Positions 1,334-1,856 of a stretch of 42,904 nucleotides of DNA are shown one piece after another. Below the pieces are notes generated by a model, which saw nothing but the letters and a program-made list of their open reading frames with translations, had not been told where the DNA came from and ran no database searches. The stretch is from Nitrospirota bacterium (GTDB taxonomy: Bacteria > Nitrospirota > Thermodesulfovibrionia > Thermodesulfovibrionales > SM23-35). Numbering within the stretch: the first letter of the stretch is position 1; the number at the start of each line of letters is the position of its first letter. A program made the translations under genes and the position numbers. The stretch spans positions 1 through 42,904 of the forward strand of contig JACUUX010000020.1 in the NCBI GenBank assembly GCA_014859105.1, in the 5' to 3' direction.

Positions 1334-1363
1334 AGTGCAAGTGCATGTGTAAGTGAGAGTGAT
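1334..1363. repeat. Hexamer tract upstream of cas2
   Basis: Five units in register on the plus strand: AGTGCA, AGTGCA, TGTGTA, AGTGAG, AGTGAT. Its orientation is opposite to the tract at 1786-1856 on the other side of the four-helix-bundle gene, so the two flank that gene as degenerate inverted repeats. Confidence 0.75.
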
Positions 1364-1378
1364 TGCAAATACAAAATA

Positions 1379-1753
1379 TTATTTAGCACTCTTCTTCTCC
1401 AAGGATTTTGCAAGGCCATAAAGCATTCTGCTTATATCCTTTATTTCTTCATTTATACTATTAAAAATGTCTTCCGACAAATATCCAAGATCCTTTGACA
1501 ACAATAACTGATATTTCAATTCCGCTGCAGAACCTCTTGATATGCCAACAAACTGACGATATTCTTTACTGTTTAGACGGTTGGCGCCTTCCAGAAGATT
1601 TGACGGAATAGAAACAGCAGCTCGTCTTATCTGGGAAATGAGTCCAAATCTTTCTTCAGAAGGTATTTGTTTTGTTATTTTATAAACTTTTAAAACCATG
1701 GCATGTATTTTTGTAAAAACATTGAGTTCTTCTGGACTATTAATTTTATCCAT
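1379..1753 (-). CDS. Four-helix-bundle protein of the S23/intervening-sequence family, inserted between cas1 and cas2
   Basis: 124 residues, almost all helical, with the family hallmarks IRRAAVSIPSNLLEGA and EYRQFVGISRGSAAELKYQL. This family (ribosomal S23 / 23S rRNA intervening-sequence protein, distantly related to Avd of diversity-generating retroelements) is often found in mobile or hitchhiking positions, and its biochemical role is unknown. The start is supported by AAAGGAG 9 bases upstream of the ATG. It lies in the same direction as the cas genes but is foreign to a cas operon, and it is flanked by hexamer tracts in opposite orientation. Family assignment is by motif recognition. A role in CRISPR adaptation would be pure speculation. 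Confidence 0.85.
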   Translation of the reverse strand: MDKINSPEELNVFTKIHAMVLKVYKITKQIPSEERFGLISQIRRAAVSIPSNLLEGANRLNSKEYRQFVGISRGSAAELKYQLLLSKDLGYLSEDIFNSINEEIKDISRMLYGLAKSLEKKSAK

Positions 1754-1785
1754 AAATACATTCTCCTTTGCCGTTTAAGATTTTT

Positions 1786-1856
1786 ACTCACACATACACA
1801 TTCACTTACACTTTGTTTTAACAATCTCATACACTTGCACTTACACTTTCACTTTA
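1786..1856. repeat. Hexamer tract between the four-helix gene and cas1; contains the cas1 stop
   Basis: Two blocks in 6-base register on the plus strand: ACTCAC/ACATAC/ACATTC/ACTTAC/ACTTTG (1786-1815) and TCATAC/ACTTGC/ACTTAC/ACTTTC/ACTTTA (1827-1856), separated by a short non-repeat gap. The cas1 TGA stop (1849-1851) falls inside the second block. Confidence 0.8.

Follow-up and report, generated by a model that had tools for sequence, protein, structure and literature searches.

An S23/IVP gene enclosed by inverted degenerate arrays in a Nitrospirota cas operon, a probable member of a transposase-free mobile family

In the contig analysed here, of which positions 1 to 42,904 are referred to as the window, the cas1 and cas2 genes of a minus-strand cas operon are separated by 518 nt. 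The operon is type I-B-like, and profiles identify in it cas3, cas5, cas7, cas6, cas1, cas2 and cas4. The gap hosts a small gene of the S23/IVP family, as well as inverted repeat tracts. What sort of DNA is this insert, and does the gene belong to the cas operon or to the tracts? A preliminary description, made from the sequence of the window, had noticed a gap of about 520 bases with one S23/IVP gene preceded by its own ribosome-binding site, and AGTGYA tracts oppositely oriented around it, and had proposed a minimal hitchhiking element with degenerate inverted repeats and no transposase. Gap, gene, ribosome-binding site and tracts (plus strand at 1334-1361, minus strand at 1784-1812 and 1829-1854) are all confirmed. 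The features of the region are the following.

1..37, minus strand: last CRISPR repeat, at the contig start; the repeat type is iterated in loci L123 and L124
239..266, plus strand: further gene-less AGTGYA-unit tract, between cas4 and the CRISPR side (repeat search)
306..1043, minus strand: cas4 (TIGR00372)
885..938, plus strand: gene-less AGTGYA-unit array inside the cas4 N-terminal coding extension (repeat search)
1014..1031, minus strand: inverted partner of the 885-938 array, 95% complementary to 903-921 (inverted-repeat search)
1040..1330, minus strand: cas2 (profiles), host operon; right boundary of the insertion, where ..TGCACTATT meets the ATG (comparison with relatives)
1334..1363, plus strand: downstream arm, a degenerate AGTGYA run pointing to the gene, inverted with respect to the upstream arm (sequence)
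1379..1753, minus strand: four-helix IVP/S23 gene, 124 aa (PF05635, TIGR02436, AlphaFold model)
1763..1769, minus strand: AAAGGAG ribosome-binding site of the IVP gene, 9 nt before the ATG (sequence)
1784..1854, minus strand: upstream arm, two degenerate AGTGYA runs (1784-1812 and 1829-1854) pointing to the gene, absent from empty sites
1849..2817, minus strand: cas1 (profiles), host operon; left boundary of the insertion, where ..CTAATAA meets AGTGAAAG.. (comparison with relatives)

Sequences fitting the pattern AGTGYAAGTGYA with at most one mismatch occur 13 times in the window, where 0.34 are expected, and all are located within 245-1853. The 16-mer form of the AGTGYA tract is found nowhere else in the 3.16-Mb genome. 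The IVP gene is the sole ORF of the insert, in which no element-encoded transposase was found, and comparison with relatives reveals no obvious target-site duplication at the cas1-cas2 boundaries. The gene-less inverted pair 885-938 (plus) and 1014-1031 (minus) and the tract at 239-266 (plus) add to the tracts listed in the preliminary description. The N-terminal extension of cas4 (885-1043) is an array translated in frame. A nucleotidyltransferase-like ORF and a Rv0078B-type antitoxin lie between cas1 and cas6 (2900-3775), and a weaker degenerate tract is found beside them at 3714-3775.

In profile searches the IVP protein scores 126.6 bits against PF05635 (cut-off 33.8) and 118.4 bits against TIGR02436 (cut-off 24). 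The AlphaFold model of the monomer (pLDDT 93.7) is a four-helix bundle. Its best structure match is 2gsc (TMq 0.86), with 2rld, followed by Avd proteins of DGR complexes. TM values to Avd in 8ub7 and 4dwl range from 0.72 to 0.80, the value for 8ub7 being 0.80, and the predicted fold thus supports the relation to Avd earlier surmised. Similarity of PF05635 and Avd has already been remarked (PMC10053308). The window protein scores below the cut-off of the bAvd profile. XCC0516, a protein of the S23/IVP family, is reportedly a toroidal pentamer. The residues that are invariant in the family (Q, S, N, E, G, S, E) may mark a functional face kept by conservation, and none of them appears to point to a nuclease or a transposase. 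Pairs of IVP genes feature a dN/dS of 0.10, indicative of strong purifying selection. A distinct family of about 200 aa, represented by L006 1207-1794 (G000 C60) and some 12 similar matches, fits PF05635 weakly. Four of its members have cas1 at a distance of 1-3 kb; the CRISPR-linked IVP listed in a 2023 survey may correspond to these.

A search for Cas1 covered 61 genomes belonging to the family and order of the window genome. The empty cas1-cas2 sites that the preliminary description had proposed to look for are present in five relatives. In G014 and G003 (Cas1 88% and 87% identical), as well as in G049, G041 and G048 (63-64%), cas1 and cas2 abut or overlap, and both gene and tracts are missing. 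A related IVP, 54% identical and flanked by AGTGTC-type tracts, occupies the identical cas1-cas2 junction in G050 (Cas1 63%). There, ..TTAATAA is followed by AGTGACAGTG.. and, after the IVP gene, ..GACACTTACC is followed by the ATG of cas2; the corresponding borders in the window are ..CTAATAA followed by AGTGAAAGTG.. and ..TGCACTATT followed by the ATG. Either two insertions hit one junction, or several exact losses took place; two gains are the simpler account. Similarly, an IVP gene with GGTGAAG arrays is found between arsD and arsA in G030, G047 and G026, and both gene and arrays are missing in G056 and G036.

Gene-less inverted tracts are found at the cas4 start in G014 and G003 (L123 1060-1215 and 415-470; L124 1105-1195). 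Their units (TCAGAAG, ACAGACA) are other than that of the window, and their place corresponds to that of the 885-1031 tracts. One syntenic site shared by L005, L093, L095 and L096 hosts IVPs of different subfamilies, with CGGTAA and AAGAGC units, respectively, suggesting that the site has been re-used or exchanged. IVP copies present in one genome are mostly divergent, and recent transposition must therefore be rare. The L036 and L063 elements, 97% identical over 499 nt, were considered as proof of transposition and discarded; the CRISPR leader is duplicated too, and segmental duplication is therefore possible.

PF05635 matches have been identified in 41 of the 61 genomes, and 97 distinct IVP genes with their flanks were collected from these. 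For each gene, the preceding 250 nt were compared by alignment with the following 250 nt, taken as reverse complement. The resulting arm score averages 17.9, against 10.7 for mispaired flanks and 10.7 for shifted intervals. The 99% point of the mispaired set is exceeded by 32 of the 97 loci, and by 2 of 354 shifted intervals. Degenerate tandem arrays, defined as exceeding the 99% point of dinucleotide shuffles, are found in at least one flank at 79/97 loci and in both at 43/97, against 7% for other stretches of the same loci. The period is mostly 7, then 8, 9 and 6, the last being that of the window, and is equal on both sides in 40 of the 43 two-sided loci. Unit sequences vary by element, and include AAGAGC, GGTGAAG, GATACAN, CGGTAA, AGGCTTT, ATTCAAA and others. 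In 267 control genes of similar size from IVP-rich genomes, arrays occupy both sides in 0-2%, and all arm scores stay below 19. A second set, retrieved by IVP similarity alone (3-row alignment), includes 77 loci from more than 25 phyla. The arm score is 19.7 versus 10.7 in this set, and arrays accompany 52/77 genes versus 4% elsewhere.

Tracts are thus common around homologues, and the expectation that the family is flanked by tracts elsewhere is upheld; the expectation that these are made of AGTGYA is not, as the unit differs with the IVP subfamily and is mostly 7 nt long. AGTGYA was rejected as a universal flank also within the genome of the window, in which the AGTGYA 16-mer is confined to the cas locus and the other IVPs have units of their own. 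The five clearest IVP loci of this genome feature arrays of a different unit each, and so does a broken sixth (C42). About 20-30% of IVP genes lack a detectable array, and a few elements (L052, L069, L322) have direct instead of inverted arms. At L002 470-1440, a HicA/HicB-like pair is located between GAAGAT tracts directly upstream of an IVP gene, and arrays may therefore enclose other small cargo. Counts throughout take in related loci, and p-values given below are therefore optimistic.

When read in the direction of the gene, arrays of either arm are rich in purines (154/202). Each unit has a core that stays constant, and one, two or three positions that are hypervariable. Which positions vary is correlated between the arms of an element (r = 0.42, p = 2e-7, 40 elements), in part perhaps because both arms retain ancestral variants. 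Unit variants do not follow a mirrored order in the two arms (unit-order test, mean z 0.17), which rules out that they are mirror copies. As variable positions agree and unit order does not, the arms are made of a common motif and are not inverted copies of each other. Adenine-specific mutation, as in DGRs, was not seen in the arrays.

Gene and unit have been compared in non-syntenic IVP pairs. Arm similarity stays at background level (about 13) in pairs whose proteins are less than 50% identical, reaches 19 in those of 60-70% identity, and 26 (25.8 against 13) in those above 70%. Cross-phylum pairs are L216 (Syntrophaceae) and L086, 67% identical, and L227 (Desulfosarcina) and L062, 71% identical. 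An outer hairpin (TCTCCCAATTAGTTGGGAGA / TCTTCTCCCAATTAGTTGGGAGAA), located outside the arrays, is common to the element ends of the latter pair. The unit is kept by non-syntenic and cross-phylum relatives, even though most of these pairs have reached saturation at synonymous sites, with dN/dS about 0.1. Intergenic sequence free of constraint would not last so long; whether by retention or by renewal, the unit must therefore keep pace with the protein. Sequence comparison shows that the gene moves with its arrays from one unrelated site or phylum to another, and that the unit is specific to the IVP subfamily.

Many arrays have no IVP gene, and are scattered through IVP-bearing genomes. A 400-kb sample of G030 (one contig) hosts 31 arrays, and none is detected in codon-shuffled sequence. 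Arrays of period 7 or 8 number 40 per 800 kb in seven IVP-bearing genomes, versus 2 per 794 kb in IVP-free genomes, which cluster in some families. In unit sequence, gene-less arrays resemble the IVPs resident in their genome more closely than foreign IVPs (42 arrays, p = 2.5e-6). In G032 they repeat the AAGTTAA unit of the L115 element; in G030 the units of four resident IVPs recur, namely AAATTTC, GGTGAAG, GATGGAA and AGGCTTA. Judged by unit sequence, gene-less arrays would stand to resident IVPs as non-autonomous to autonomous mobile elements, and the cas4 arrays of the window look like such non-autonomous derivatives. Some arrays are translated in frame, as a linker inside ArsA at L064 (TASPLRPLTHSPIHPFTASPLHPFTPSPIN), and as signal peptides (ALCSMLYALC..) at L096 2294-2420 and 3996-4100.

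IVP genes lie in sense direction between two co-directional genes in 125 of 151 cases, versus 139 of 251 control genes (p = 1e-8; start codons of the flanking genes were assigned mechanically). Within 1.5 kb of cas1 or of a CRISPR array are 9 of the 97 IVP loci versus none of 240 control tiles; none of the 77 loci of the all-phyla set is found at CRISPR loci. On cyanobacterial plasmids, the order cas6-IVP-cas4 is found in Pseudanabaena and Anabaena sp. 90 (type I-D), and cmr2-IVP-cmr3 in Picosynechococcus PCC 7003 (type III-B). Arrays are present at those cyanobacterial IVPs that were checked. Other elements (L104, L097, L087, L103, L053, L036, L063) lie inside CRISPR arrays, sense to the array. 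Their left boundary falls exactly at the 3' end of a repeat (after ..TTGCGAC or ..TTGAAAC), on the right the array resumes about 25-31 nt before a repeat end, and repeat duplications of about 25 nt accompany the insertions. These elements sit as if they occupied a spacer position. CRISPR repeats are also interrupted by gene-less hairpins with AAGTGAAAG arrays (L036 2120-2240 and 2440-2550, L063 2390-2500), and several near-identical copies of these hairpins are found within one CRISPR array. Such elements have landed repeatedly in cas operons and CRISPR arrays, both in this lineage and among cyanobacteria.

Taken together, the data make it probable that the insert is one copy of a minimal mobile family of IVS type, in which an S23/IVP gene is enclosed by two inverted arrays and which spreads gene-less derivatives. 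Empty sites and tract-flanked homologues bear out the hitchhiking element first proposed. The recurrence of this architecture in over 25 bacterial groups suggests a sort of mobile DNA that lacks a transposase and has not been described before. The four-helix, Avd-like protein may recognise the unit of its element, be it in single-stranded, hairpin or RNA form. Along with host replication or repair enzymes, it could promote insertion and array outgrowth. Promotion in cis would give rise to full elements, promotion in trans to gene-less arrays. Insertion at stop/start junctions in sense direction would leave host genes readable. In the window, the element would have been inserted behind the stop codon of cas1 and ahead of the start of cas2, and would have given rise to the gene-less arrays around cas4. 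That a non-catalytic four-helix protein which recognises its own degenerate unit drives inverted arrays, with or without its gene, and hence forms a new mechanistic class, is a tentative idea, less likely than not. If true, much of the anonymous heptamers and STRR, and rRNA IVS, would be one family.

Other explanations account for part of these data. Were the element an RNA-level passenger like rRNA IVS, RNase III would excise the arm stem together with the IVP frame, and stem selection would keep the arms complementary. The strong sense-in-operon bias agrees with this, as does the RNA duplex that an element's own arms would form, at -53 kcal/mol versus -38 kcal/mol for mispaired arms. Arm mismatches of 115 elements include 208 G-U and 220 A-C pairs, however; this lack of G-U excess is expected if pairing in sense RNA is unselected, and complementarity is therefore not visibly selected in sense RNA. 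RNA-stem selection was rejected on these grounds; gene-less and one-sided arrays, moreover, are common, and the RNA passenger is rather unlikely. It is less likely still that arrays came first, as ordinary STRR-like expansions generated by polymerase slippage at gene junctions, where IVP genes merely land or survive. Gene-less arrays do far outnumber IVP genes, as in G030, cyanobacterial STRR are known, usually 7-bp and hairpin-capable (PMC2670836, PMC3488679), and unit order is unmirrored between arms. Yet empty cas1-cas2 sites have no array, IVP-free genomes are nearly devoid of arrays, units go with the IVP subfamily whatever the site or phylum, arms are inverted rather than direct, and genome arrays match resident IVPs.

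An improbable source of the arrays is also a separate enzyme that makes and moves them in trans, either a transposase (RAYT/Y1_Tnp) or a DGR-type RT. Y1_Tnp is found in 38 of 41 IVP-bearing versus 10 of 20 IVP-free genomes (p=3e-4), and Avd, the fold relative of IVP, partners an RT. RAYT was discarded as a candidate, because it correlates with IVP presence, yet RAYT genes feature inverted ends and no 7-nt arrays, and IVP-free genomes carrying Y1_Tnp lack arrays. RT was discarded because most IVP-bearing genomes (25/41) have none, nor does the window. Finally, the IVP gene is very unlikely to be a genuine accessory of the CRISPR adaptation module, even if a 23S rRNA IVP figures among the novel adaptation-module associations of the 2023 survey (PMC10910872), and proximity to cas1 or CRISPR arrays and the cyanobacterial type I-D and III-B operons speak for it. 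The nearest cas operons, five homologous ones, have no IVP, and 88/97 IVP loci, as well as all the 77 of the all-phyla set, are away from CRISPR. The position of the gene differs among cas operons (cas1-cas2, cas6-cas4, cmr2-cmr3); as distant operons host it at other junctions, it is not a stable cas gene. Given that elements land repeatedly in cas operons and CRISPR arrays, a landing element is a simple alternative to a CRISPR adaptation gene.

S23/IVP proteins are widespread and conserved, and have no known function; short degenerate repeats, such as STRR and heptamers, have been unexplained for decades. The two are now linked, as the array unit follows the protein subfamily and the arrays of a genome match its own IVPs. 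The link makes both the function of IVP and the origin of the repeats directly testable.

The pieces of this picture, namely rRNA IVS, the heptamers of Coxiella, cyanobacterial STRR and the IVP-CRISPR association, are already known. The whole is not known in the literature searched, outside of which lay subscription journals and preprints; no paper joining IVS, heptamers, STRR and the IVP-CRISPR association was found there. Elements of the IVP type share with REP/RAYT systems and MITEs the relation between an autonomous gene and small inverted sequences, non-autonomous and scattered. They differ because they encode no catalytic protein and end in arrays rather than in a fixed palindrome; such arrays are missing from RAYT genes. 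The four-helix bundle fold is shared with DGR Avd, but the window has no RT (no RVT_1 match was found on its contig) and its IVP has a bAvd score below cut-off. Cyanobacterial STRR and the heptanucleotide repeats of the Nostoc tRNA-Leu intron (P6b) and of hupS-hupL resemble the gene-less arrays (PMC2670836, PMC3488679). Both are degenerate 7-nt tandem repeats, hairpin-forming, intergenic and present in several unit classes; the arrays described here have period 7 in most cases, 6 in the window, and occur between genes in inverted pairs. STRR have been described as anonymous, whereas these arrays are linked to IVP genes, flank them in inverted orientation, and match the resident IVP in unit. 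The closest likeness is to rRNA IVS, such as the helix-45 IVS of Coxiella burnetii (PMC4990558). These similarly feature one S23/IVP ORF between complementary ends, no transposase, and sense orientation in the host transcript, and in Coxiella strain-variable tandem heptamers are located just upstream of the S23p ORF (PMC4990558). In contrast, the window element lies in a protein operon (cas1-cas2) and not in a 16S/23S rRNA gene, elements of its type have array arms, a unit for each element family and scattered gene-less derivatives, and their G-U data do not favour RNA-stem selection. The window element is thus a free-standing counterpart of 23S rRNA intervening sequences, by its location a variant rather than a member of them.
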